Source: Allobosea sp.
GTDB taxonomy: Bacteria; Pseudomonadota; Alphaproteobacteria; Rhizobiales; Beijerinckiaceae
Assembly (NCBI RefSeq): GCF_017308015.1
Contig: NZ_JAFKFW010000034.1
Location: 1-44,193, forward strand
Reading direction: 5' to 3'
DNA: 44,193 nucleotides
Under the pieces are notes generated by a model. The model saw only the letters and a list, made by a program, of their open reading frames with translations. It searched no databases and had not been told where the DNA came from. How positions within the stretch are numbered: position 1 is the first letter of the stretch; every line of letters begins with the position of its first letter. Below, piece by piece: positions 5,619-15,039 of the stretch. Position numbers and translations under genes: made by a program.

Positions 5619-6150
5619 TTCCCCGCGGTTCCAGCGCACGCCAAAATCCCGCCCGCGCGGATCGCGCCGCGGTTTCGAAATGAGGGGCAGCGGAGCGCCG
5701 CGAGGCGCGGGGTTATCCAAGCCGCTTCCATTGAGCCAGGATGCGGCGCGGATGGATTGAGCCACCATCCGCACGCCCCGTGGCGCTCCGCTTGCCGGCG
5801 TTCTTAAGTCTCCGGGCCGCGCTTATCGGGCCTGGGGCTATCCTTTGCCGCGAACCCTTTCAACGCCAGTTCGGCTCATCGCCTTGTCGCGTCTCGTCGG
5901 GCATGGGACGAAGGCGTGATGCCACCGACCGTTCCAGCGAAGCTCCTCGCGCAGGGGCCGTAGTACCCCCAGGGCGGTGCCCCGAAGCCTCCCGGGAGTG
6001 GGTCGTAACCCCACCCGCAGGCGCCGCCCCCGCCCCGCCAACGGCATACCTCCGGATGGCTGCCCCTCGGGGACGAGGTGGGGTGAGGATAGAGGCGGCA
6101 CGGGAGGGCGGGGATAAAATTTCGCAGTCGCCAAGATCGAGCGGGGAGAA

Positions 6151-6174
6151 CCTTTCTCCCGTATGGGAGAAGGG
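6151..6174. repeat. Hairpin repeat TTCTCCC/GGGAGAA
   Basis: CCTTTCTCCC-GTAT-GGGAGAAGGG, a near-perfect stem with a 4-base loop. It matches the 5418-5439 hairpin, so copies of one family lie upstream and downstream of the noncoding block beside the AT-rich gene. Confidence 0.55.
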
Positions 6175-6327
6175 TATGTATTGGGGGCAGCCTTCTCAAA
6201 GTACGTCGGCGGCGGCAGTGACACTTATATCTTCAACAATCATCGCCACCGCTGCCTTTCATCCGGAAGAAGGCGTCATGCGGCAATCGTCGCCGAAAAC
6301 TCGCCTTCGCGTGAAGCAGCTCTCGGC

Positions 6328-8196
6328 TTATTCAACTGCCTTTTGTTTCGGCATCTGGACCTTCCGCCATCGGACGCTTAACCGCCGGCCGCCCAAAGTG
6401 ATAACCTCACCCAGTGCCTTTTCAGCTAAGCGCCTATCTTCATATTCAACAAATGCAAAACCTTTTGTAACGGAACCATTTAGAGGGATTTTTACCGCAT
6501 CAGGCTGGCCGATATCTCTAAAAGCAAATATTATGTCCCTATCGGTCGTATTTAAAGGTATGTTTGCAACATACAGCTCGCCACTTTGTGGCAACAAATC
6601 CGACAATGCAATTTTATCCTGCGTCTTCCTCGGATTTCTTTTTGTTTCAATTTCGGAAACTGGCTTAACTCGGAAACGTTTTACGTCCCTAACACCAACT
6701 TTTGATTTTGACGCAATTTTTTGAGCTTTATGTTTTGTAATGGCGGATTCCAAAATCCCCTTCTGCTGAAGAGAATGGATGATTTGACGATAATTCTCGA
6801 TGTCTACTATACCAAGATGGCTAATAATACCATTTGGAGATATCAAATCGCCAGATCGCCCCATAAGAATAAGAGCCTTCTCCTTCAAAGAAAGATTCAA
6901 TGAGGAATATTGATCAATCCAAAGTATTTCATCCCTATTATACATAGTCCGATGATGAAGGGCCAATACAAATGAATTTCTATCGCTAATTATCTCGGGA
7001 GGAGAAAGCTCATTACTTTTCATTATCTCGAATATGCGCATCATGCCTTCGCCAAGCTCGCGCATGAAACCAATTTCGCGCAAGCAACGAGCAACATAGG
7101 AATTCCTTGATTGATGTACGCCCCGAAGTTCCTCGAGGTCCTTAACCGAGATTGAGGATAATAATCCACCCGGATTCTTTGTCTCTATCCGGTCATTATA
7201 TATGTATATCTCAATTCCTCGACCTTCGTCTGAATAATCCCTATGAGCTATTGCATTAACAAGCGACTCACGACACGCAATCTCGGGATACATATAGGTA
7301 GTTTTAAATTTTGCTTCTTCATTAAATCTCGTTTCGACCAAGTGAGGCCTAATACGATCCCACGCTTCGTCAAGAAGTTTTATAAGATTGTTATTGATCG
7401 TCTCGTCAGCGGTAACATTATAACTTGATCCAGCACCGATGCTAATACCATTTACCTTTAGAATTCGTACTTGCGACCTGGGGTGCCAGCGATCTGGATT
7501 ACGTGCGAACAAAAGAAGGGCAGCGCGACGCAATCGCAGCCCAGTACCAGCGTCATACTCGGCCAAACCAAGATACTGTAAACAGCGGTCGATGCTAATT
7601 CCCTTAGAAACCTGATCGGCAACAAGCCTCAGGAGGTCGCTGTCCAAATCAGCAACAGAAGCACCATCAATAAACTCCCGATCATACTCGCGCGAAAAGA
7701 CCTCTTGACGATCAAACTGCAATCTCTCTGCTGAGACGGGTATAGTTTCGAGGTCGTTCCTTCGTAAACACCTACCGTCTGATGTCAAATGAACATATTT
7801 TGTACTTTTTGATATACGAAAATAGATAACCTTCAAGCCGTCAATAATTATATCGCGCGCCAAAACAGACTGCAGTGGCGTGTCAGGATGAACATGACTT
7901 ACCGGAGATTTTTTTAGCCTCGATATCTCCTCTTCTGAAAAATCATTCACGCCAGTGATGGAGCCATCATCTTCAACTCCAATAATTATTTCACCGCCAT
8001 CAGCGTTTGCGAAGCCAACAAGAGCCTCAGAGATATCGACACAGATGTCTCTAACCTTGCGCTTAATCTTACTTTGGGGAGGCCCCTCCAAGGCGCTCTT
8101 GAATTCCCGAAATTGGCCCTCGGCGAGCGAGACTGCGATTCGAACTTGTTCAACGAGATTAAGTGGTTCTGACATGGTCCCCTCGGCCAGCGTCAC
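6328..8196 (-). CDS. AlbA_2 (Schlafen-like) / ATPase-like / RRM fusion protein
   Basis: Protein of 622 residues from GTG 8196, where AGGGAG lies 8 bases upstream. ATG 8175 (MSEPLNL) is an alternative, 7 residues shorter. Residues ~20-165 form an AlbA_2 domain: E26-x4-E31-F-K, then GFANADGGEIIIGVEDDG at 61-78. Residues ~300-395 carry the COG2865/HATPase_c_4 signature RESLVNAIAHRDYS, then NPGGL at 341-345 and ELGEGMMRIFE. Residues ~420-490 look like a winged helix. A lysine/arginine-rich linker leads to a C-terminal RRM at ~539-612 with RNP2 LYVANI (541-546) and RNP1 KGFAFVEY (578-585). COG2865 proteins are usually annotated as transcriptional regulators; an RRM fused to one is unusual. Base composition is far more AT-rich than all neighbours, indicating transfer. 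Its function is unknown; RNA-targeting or defence is inference. Confidence 0.92.
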   Translation of the reverse strand: MTLAEGTMSEPLNLVEQVRIAVSLAEGQFREFKSALEGPPQSKIKRKVRDICVDISEALVGFANADGGEIIIGVEDDGSITGVNDFSEEEISRLKKSPVSHVHPDTPLQSVLARDIIIDGLKVIYFRISKSTKYVHLTSDGRCLRRNDLETIPVSAERLQFDRQEVFSREYDREFIDGASVADLDSDLLRLVADQVSKGISIDRCLQYLGLAEYDAGTGLRLRRAALLLFARNPDRWHPRSQVRILKVNGISIGAGSSYNVTADETINNNLIKLLDEAWDRIRPHLVETRFNEEAKFKTTYMYPEIACRESLVNAIAHRDYSDEGRGIEIYIYNDRIETKNPGGLLSSISVKDLEELRGVHQSRNSYVARCLREIGFMRELGEGMMRIFEIMKSNELSPPEIISDRNSFVLALHHRTMYNRDEILWIDQYSSLNLSLKEKALILMGRSGDLISPNGIISHLGIVDIENYRQIIHSLQQKGILESAITKHKAQKIASKSKVGVRDVKRFRVKPVSEIETKRNPRKTQDKIALSDLLPQSGELYVANIPLNTTDRDIIFAFRDIGQPDAVKIPLNGSVTKGFAFVEYEDRRLAEKALGEVITLGGRRLSVRWRKVQMPKQKAVE

Positions 8197-8340
8197 TCGA
8201 ATCGCTCCCTAGATCACAACCTTTAGTAAACATGTGTTTCCACGTATACACCTTGACTCCCCCCGCCCTCCCATCCTACCCCCATCGACGGGACACGCCC
8301 CCCCAACGGGGCGCGCCCATCTGTAAGGATGGAGACATCG

Positions 8341-14937: not shown

Positions 14938-14985
14938 GGCCCCGGGACGACCCGCGGCCTTCGCAACCTCACAGGGGACGGCCCC
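14938..14985 (+). promoter_or_regulatory. Second pair of ACGR hairpins, in the atpB leader
   Basis: The first stem is GGCC-C-CGGG-ACGA-CCCG-C-GGCC at 14938-14959 (eight pairs, one C-C mismatch). The second is GGGG-ACGG-CCCC at 14974-14985. A 14-base linker joins them. Both loops satisfy ACGR, the guanidine-II signature, yet the next gene is atpB. A third strong hairpin, CGCGGA-ATCT-TCCGCG, follows at 14990-15005. This could be a real riboswitch-like element or chance in GC-rich sequence. Confidence 0.35.
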
Positions 14986-15039
14986 ACGACGCGGAATCTT
15001 CCGCGCCGTCGCGCAACCCCGTGAGCGGAGGCCTTCGCC

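Follow-up and report, generated by a model that had tools for sequence, protein, structure and literature searches.

An RRM-tailed Schlafen-like protein in a defence hotspot upstream of serC in Allobosea

Does a bacterial Schlafen-like protein that ends in an RNA recognition motif (RRM) respond to RNA, and if so, for what purpose? This question is raised by a 44,193-nucleotide stretch of Allobosea sp. DNA (contig NZ_JAFKFW010000034.1, positions 1 to 44,193 of the forward strand; hereafter the window), which carries a gene on the minus strand (6328..8175) encoding a 615-amino-acid protein with an AlbA_2 domain, a GHKL-type ATPase domain, a winged helix and a C-terminal RRM. Our preferred reading, which we hold to be on balance probable, is that this gene by itself constitutes a phage-defence system, whose product is an RNA-sensing Schlafen RNase. 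The observations that bear on this reading are the domains and motifs of the protein, the joint retention of residues E19 and D69 among its relatives, the existence of three co-linear fusion proteins, the fast divergence of their RRMs, and the location of the gene in a defence hotspot.

Domain architecture and a putative active site

The reading frame of the gene is also open from an upstream GTG (6328-8196 in the list of open reading frames, ORFs), but the ATG at 8175 is the likelier start because a GAGGGG run lies shortly upstream of it. Residue numbers given here refer to the 615-residue protein that begins at this ATG. The Pfam query began at residue 2, and its numbers were shifted by one.

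A sequence-only reading of this DNA had assigned an AlbA_2 domain, a COG2865 signature, a probable winged helix and a C-terminal RRM to the protein, and all four assignments held. Pfam places SLFN_AlbA_2 (Schlafen-like) at residues 19-145 (7741..8121, minus strand, as for all protein features below; E-value 1.4e-15, 58.3 bits versus a cut-off of 25.3), HATPase_c_4 (GHKL-type ATPase) at residues 318-405 (6961..7224; 2.3e-21, above the cut-off), and RRM_1 (PF00076) at residues 534-590 (6406..6576; 4.5e-10, 39.7 bits versus a cut-off of 20.7). Within the translated RRM, both RNP2 (LYVANI, residues 534-539, 6559..6576) and RNP1 (KGFAFVEY, residues 571-578, 6442..6465) are complete and carry aromatic residues, and both agree with the consensus for these motifs. 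The winged helix (approximately residues 425-481, 6733..6903) gives no Pfam match on the protein itself; it is placed by matches of the family profile to MarR-type chains and by the secondary structure of an AlphaFold2 model built with a 61-sequence alignment, in which this region comprises helices and a strand (predicted local distance difference test score, pLDDT, 91-96). Most of the protein up to approximately residue 480 is modelled with pLDDT above 90. The COG2865 protein DIP2311 (PDB 3lmm), which was deposited as an uncharacterised protein and has no RRM, is the best match both of the family profile (1.2e-48) and of a Foldseek search (3.1e-22).

A Pfam search of the host genome detected this AlbA_2 domain and this RRM as its sole examples. 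RRM matches were found in 42 of 385 genomes of the class (own genome included), 46 in total; the 45 outside the window protein all fall in open frames no longer than 330 amino acids. A 615-residue RRM protein is therefore exceptional in the class surveyed.

Vertebrate SLFN proteins, among them the human antiviral Schlafens that cut RNA, and the tRNase domain of SAMD9 have the same AlbA_2 fold. The family profile matches chains of SLFN12, SLFN14, SLFN13 (5yd0), SLFN11 and SLFN5 with E-values of 5.8e-9 to 2e-6 at best. Foldseek likewise returns SLFN5 (6.1e-4) and, more weakly (approximately 2e-3 to 2e-2, with low TM-scores), SLFN11, 12, 13 and 14, the SAMD9 tRNase domain and histidine-kinase cores. 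According to the accessible part of one report (PMC5862951), SLFN13 requires E205, E210 and D248. These carboxylates align with E19 (8119..8121), E24 (8104..8106) and D69 (7969..7971) of the window protein, respectively, a placement taken from the alignments of the family profile with SLFN12 and SLFN14, in which spacing was counted by eye. SLFN13 comprises two lobes, whereas the window protein has one AlbA_2 unit together with a GHKL-type ATPase domain and an RRM.

Among the 61 aligned sequences, E19 and D69 are both kept in 40 and both lost in 19, with E19 alone in one and D69 alone in another. The two residues thus go together in 59 of 61 sequences (Fisher 1.3e-13, uncorrected for phylogeny). 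This is the pattern that a putative shared active site predicts, with the count inflated by shared ancestry. Position 24 is Glu in all 16 members of the subfamily; in the full set of 61 sequences, 29 have Glu there and 18 have Asp. Just ahead of the HATPase_c_4 domain, E303 and N307 are invariant (61/61), and we take these to be the GHKL N-box pair.

Some relatives deviate in other ways. In the clade of close relatives formed by L120, L122, L124, L125 and L127, E19 and D69 are jointly replaced by Arg and Pro while E303 and N307 are retained, and this clade is possibly nuclease-dead. A separate relative (L130:7157-9277, plus strand) carries a second HATPase_c_4 unit in its C-terminal part.

Occurrence of the fusion and divergence of its tail

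A scan of genome contigs with the COG2865 alignment reached a co-linear protein in Paenibacillus rubinfantis (L118) that is 44% identical to the window protein over 581 aligned columns, retains E19, E24 and D69, and matches AlbA_2, HATPase_c_4 and RRM_1 (1e-15; 57.7 bits) in Pfam. A third fusion, from another Bacilli genome, is 63% identical to the Paenibacillus protein over residues 2-606. Its architecture is assigned from this identity and from the RRM matches of its tail, which include PUF60 RRM chains at 1.6e-8. With a custom RRM profile the third member scores 15.5 bits versus 32.8 and 46.0 for the other two. The tail is recognised as an RRM in each of the three proteins. The fusion, although rare, is genuine: three co-linear proteins exist in two phyla, and 2 of 299 Bacilli genomes carry it, one being P. 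rubinfantis itself.

The suggestion that the gene was acquired is supported by its composition, its flanks and its phylogeny. As had been noted from the letters, the gene is AT-rich, with a GC content of 0.436 versus 0.62-0.73 in 1-kb windows on its flanks. The corresponding values are 0.358 versus 0.46-0.68 for the Paenibacillus gene and 0.377 versus 0.45-0.61 for the third. No flank common to any two of the three regions was found by blastn. Between the two Bacilli regions, blastn similarity comprises the gene alone, and tblastx detects in addition short matching pieces and, at a different position, a weak similarity of LacI type; between the window and either Bacilli region, the common stretch is confined to the gene interior. 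In a 30-protein tree, for which the first 520 residues of the window and Paenibacillus proteins were used (RRM excluded) and the third member was left out, these two proteins form a clade with 100/100 support and a long stem. The simplest history is a single fusion followed by transfer between phyla.

Searches for other carriers define how far this rarity extends. The family has at least 87 homologues and, among the matches listed, the custom profile finds an RRM solely in the Paenibacillus protein besides the window protein; 18 of the 87 homologue ORFs are shorter than 420 amino acids and four shorter than 350, some being evident fragments. Further fusions may exist beyond those listed. Several close relatives end, as judged by eye, in one or two winged helices, and the last stretch of one (L119) matches MarR_2 at 1.7e-4. 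No further fusion was found in 61 relatives (1e-3), in 397 genomes of the order (1e-15), 398 of the phylum (1e-20) or 357 of the class (1e-30), each set including the host's own genome, or in 40 genomes of the genus Paenibacillus (1e-20; P. rubinfantis included); these genome sets overlap one another. Scans of genome contigs and viral contigs with the single protein gave no relative, and plasmid and phage records gave none covering 80% of the protein in one place. A literature search, with bioRxiv preprints outside its coverage, returned no report of a bacterial Schlafen-RRM fusion and, among the matches listed, no source for the PDB entry called CbCash. The excerpts retrieved for COG2865 together with defense use COG2865 only as a genomic-context label, and the accessible part of PMC12851939 mentions Schlafen solely in its references.

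The three members differ most in their tails. Between the two Bacilli proteins, the AlbA_2 domain, the middle region and the ATPase domain are 74-75% identical, the winged helix is 53% identical, and the RRM is identical at only 25% of 72 columns. Nei-Gojobori estimates of change at amino-acid-changing sites (dN) for this pair are 0.21 for the head, 0.35 for the winged helix and linker, and 0.72 for the RRM; since dS is at or near saturation, no dN/dS ratio is given. The RRM has therefore changed approximately threefold faster at such sites than the nuclease head, while RNP1 is retained in all three members. Recognition domains in conflict with viruses typically show this pattern of a fast-changing tail joined to a constant effector, which suggests that the RRM may serve such a role. 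It is also possible that the tail was swapped for an unrelated RRM.

The serC-upstream slot and the proposed function of the protein

The window gene occupies, in its own genome, an exchange slot upstream of serC. The conserved right border of this slot is the serC promoter region (8251..8337, plus strand) with the serC leader (RF00517, 8286-8337). The serC region was matched in all 41 genus genomes searched (own included; matches short or weak in G029, G033 and G034), and is also 76-79% similar to Methylobacterium, Shinella, Sinorhizobium and Rhizobium replicons. Among 20 congener regions, the conserved right block begins at window positions 8247-8252 in 19 and at 8276 in L045, and left similarity stops at 6073-6176 in 16. 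Close to this left border lies a palindrome that we label REP-like (repetitive extragenic palindromic; 6154..6173, plus strand).

Low-GC ORFs, mostly of GC 0.41-0.55, lie between these borders in 16 of the 20 congeners, and this cargo varies from species to species, with the exception that L056 and L062 each carry a GmrSD_N gene. The cargo families comprise reverse transcriptase, HTH with ImmA/IrrE, DUF5343 with HEPN, GmrSD_N with HEPN, D12 methyltransferase, cytidine deaminase, DUF3800, DUF2971, DUF488 and unknown genes. One region (L057) holds a longer stretch, for the most part of high GC, that includes a C5 methyltransferase; two (L058 and L059) have no low-GC cargo, and L045 has 35 bp between the borders.

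PADLOC matched 9 of 20 cargo ORFs, distributed over 7 of the 12 congener slots scanned (L047, L050, L051, L052, L056, L062 and L063), and none of the ten flanking genes of the window. The matches are DRT9 (1.8e-154), dCTPase (9.9e-144; cytidine deaminase in Pfam), PD-Lambda-5 B (1.1e-112) and A (6.2e-72, over the second half only), NsnA (2.2e-56 and 3.5e-45), PD-Lambda-2_B (7.8e-45), and PDC-M34 A (5.2e-36) and B (9.9e-36). The serC-upstream slot is thus a defence hotspot that holds different defence genes in different relatives, in agreement with the defence setting proposed earlier for the window gene.

Other cargoes of the same slot are L049:9792-11897 (minus strand), L053:1310-3608 (minus) and L055:1389-3838 (plus), for which PADLOC gave no match, and L060:1353-3358 (minus), which lies outside the scanned set. 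All four are candidate defence genes of an undescribed kind. At the right border of the slots in L057, L062, L050, L060 and L061, immediately left of the serC promoter, inspection by eye showed runs of the type CATTTG...GTTCGCGC that resemble one another loosely, and these are perhaps a recombination or end motif. A right-end motif of the congener slots was considered and found too irregular to claim.

The head of the window protein resembles parts of several known systems. Bacterial Schlafens with an ATPase domain and a winged helix-turn-helix are known in defence, as stated in the accessible part of PMC12839542. They share the head of the window protein (AlbA_2, GHKL-type ATPase and winged helix), and the same excerpt indicates that tRNA cleavage and abortive infection have been proposed for them. 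Unlike these proteins, the window protein has an additional C-terminal RRM, which is its fastest-changing part. This kind of bacterial Schlafen is therefore already known, and the RRM tail is the new part. The same source describes, in the part available, BREX-related DUF499 ATPases with a hypervariable C-terminal RRM-fold domain proposed to bind foreign nucleic acid; the hypervariable tail is alike, whereas the ATPase and effector differ and the systems are multi-gene.

The best PADLOC match of the window protein itself is to the N-terminal part of a prokaryotic Argonaute (pAgo) model (4.9e-29), and two Aga_SIR2 models match in part (3.1e-16 and 1.4e-11). Fusions of long-B pAgos to an AlbA_2 domain are reported in the accessible portion of PMC6299218, and these likewise join a similar head to a nucleic-acid-recognising tail. 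Membership in the pAgos was rejected: the match covers only profile positions 27-437 of 1121, Pfam finds no PIWI, and no PIWI, MID or PAZ part is present. A RecG helicase assignment was also rejected, given that no helicase-core Pfam family matches at E up to 1 and that the only link is PF13749, whose description mentions RecG.

We propose that RNase activity, an RNA trigger, ATP gating and a role in phage defence may be combined in this one protein. The N-terminal AlbA_2 domain would be an endoribonuclease that uses E19, E24 and D69, with tRNA or another translation RNA as its probable target, and the GHKL-type ATPase domain and winged helix would hold or gate this nuclease. The C-terminal RRM would be the recognition module and would bind an RNA that appears on infection. 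On RNA binding, the ATPase domain would switch state and the nuclease would shut down translation, resulting in abortive infection. The gene itself would be horizontally moved cargo of the exchange slot. That the protein senses or acts on RNA, as the sequence-only reading had proposed, is suggested by the RNP motifs, the rapid divergence of the RRM and the putative triad. Neither of the outcomes which that reading had named as refuting it was seen in the searches made: the tail does score as an RRM, and no well-described regulator of this architecture came up. The sensing part can here be guessed from sequence, being a recognisable RNA-binding domain that changes fast. If this proposal is correct, bacterial immunity would include RRMs, a domain that elsewhere in the class surveyed occurs in frames of at most 330 amino acids.

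Several results weigh against this proposal. The RRM is modelled poorly by AlphaFold2, with block mean pLDDT values of 33-63 from residue 531 onward, and therefore the assignment of its fold rests on sequence. The Foldseek matches to SLFN proteins are weak, with query TM-scores of 0.14-0.16, and 14 of the 61 sequences have a residue other than Glu or Asp at position 24. The third member, which has the lowest RRM profile score, has His in place of the RNP2 aromatic residue, and the canonical RNA-binding surface is thus incompletely kept. The two further copies of the architecture have ordinary neighbours. Those of the Paenibacillus gene encode trypsin/PDZ, DAO, SLH/CAP and LRR/SLH proteins, and the third copy lies among ORFs that look ordinary by eye. 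Within the slot, 5 of the 12 scanned regions (L044, L049, L053, L054 and L055) gave no PADLOC match, the scan covered 12 of the 20 slots, and several of the matched models are labelled 'candidate' only. Furthermore, the cargo ORFs were chosen for size and low GC after the Pfam results had been seen, and so were not blind, with the ten flanking genes as the control.

An alternative that we consider unlikely is that the RRM is a substrate-delivery arm and not a sensor: it would carry tRNA, mRNA or rRNA to the AlbA_2 nuclease, and another part of the protein, such as the ATPase domain, would detect the trigger. Binding to single-stranded RNA is common among RRMs, and the nuclease residues look intact. 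In addition, some relatives carry another winged-helix-like stretch in place of the RRM (judged by eye, with the MarR_2 match of L119 noted above), and therefore the tail may simply present substrate. However, a conserved host RNA should require a conserved arm, and the two Bacilli proteins share only 25% identity in the RRM as against 74-75% in the head.

We judge somewhat less probable a regulator without nuclease function, in which the winged helix would act on DNA and the RRM on RNA to control transcription or translation of host or phage genes. The MarR-related winged helix in the family profile and the 19 sequences that have lost both E19 and D69 are consistent with this view. In contrast, the window and Paenibacillus proteins retain the triad residues, and other cargoes of the slot match defence models.

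More improbable again is that the gene is selfish and toxin-like, maintained through addiction, or that it defends against plasmids instead of phages. In each of the three hosts the gene has a higher AT content than the DNA around it, and no partner is evident in the window. However, the slot contains no possible antitoxin, since its other ORFs of at least 80 amino acids are antisense overlaps only, and the congener cargoes match anti-phage models. For lack of an adjacent partner among ORFs of this size, a two-gene toxin-antitoxin system was likewise rejected. That the gene is a decaying, functionless relic of an acquired gene is scarcely credible: its composition is atypical and none of the other genus genomes among the 61 relatives searched has the fusion, but the frame is open for 615 codons, its motifs are intact, and it has a co-linear homologue at 44% identity in Paenibacillus.

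A dispersed structured element beside the cargo

To the left of the window gene lies a dispersed, covarying structured element of approximately 0.47 kb (5648..6118, plus strand), which ends in GGGCGGGGATAA and contains two hairpins with the loop ATTGAGCCA (5721-5772, plus strand). The repeat-dense DNA noted earlier at the border of the gene consists, on the left, of this specific element and the REP-like palindrome; on the right, the gene is bordered by the promoter region and leader of serC. Copies of the element were collected from serC regions (L044, L046-L056 and L060-L063) and from 14 other regions (L241-L254). The element has four matches in the host's own genome and five in G009, and was matched in 11 of 12 genus genomes searched (own included; short pieces only in G001 and G008) and in none of seven genomes outside the genus. 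It had no match in plasmids, and an exact 28-base piece of it had none in viral contigs. Of the 20 congener serC regions, 16 have the element to the left of the cargo, and these are the same 16 that carry low-GC cargo.

Each hairpin carries the loop ATTGAGCCA or GTTGAGCCA in 21 of 22 aligned copies, and the form common to both is (A/G)TTGAGCCA. A partial structure of 31 pairs, whose helices were picked by eye from one sequence after an RNAalifold fold of nine copies, is 95.0% paired across the 22 copies. It shows 51 double changes versus a mean of 16.9 for shuffled alignments and at most 12 for slid versions. Further pair types number 15 versus 13.3 on shuffling, which is not clearly above expectation (82 of 500 shuffles). 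The RNAalifold fold of nine copies has 16 compensated pairs and an overall covariation term of +1.13, which represents no net gain. No Rfam family matches the element at its gathering score, and at E up to 1 only mir-1986 (0.27) and Chlorobi-1 (0.8) appear, at chance level. RNase P RNA, transfer-messenger RNA (tmRNA) and 6S RNA were rejected as identities, with no Rfam match and no tmRNA found by ARAGORN. A complement between the end of the element and the serC promoter looks fortuitous, since congeners retain it only in part.

Twenty-seven copies have 1.5 kb or more of sequence on either side, and at all 27 the 500-base stretch of lowest GC content lies 3' of the element, although these copies may be orthologous between genomes and hence not independent. 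Eleven of the 27 lie away from serC, and the difference is only 0.03 in two (L248 and L252). The cargo 3' of non-serC copies was sampled as ten ORFs from 8 of 14 regions. Matches include AbiU (7.5e-104), a type II methyltransferase (1.6e-98) beside a DpdB-like protein (2e-16), and a protein that we read as SIR2-like (best models LmuA, 2.3e-9, and ThsA, 1.2e-5); of the other ORFs, three gave weak matches (3.3e-8 to 1e-5) and three gave none.

These findings suggest that the element may mark or drive cargo exchange. We advance, as a tentative and rather doubtful extension, that the RRM-Schlafen gene is one cassette of an exchange system. The genus-specific element would mark fixed docking sites at serC and several other loci, interchangeable low-GC defence genes would be inserted 3' of it, apparently with no recombinase nearby, and the RRM tail would be the fast-evolving sensor that fires the Schlafen RNase. 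If the element does mark docking sites, a fixed cargo junction would be expected 3' of GGGGATAA. DNA on the 3' side of the element also offers a way to look for more defence genes.

Elsewhere in the window, a guanidine-II (mini-ykkC) riboswitch aptamer lies at 14939-14986 on the plus strand.

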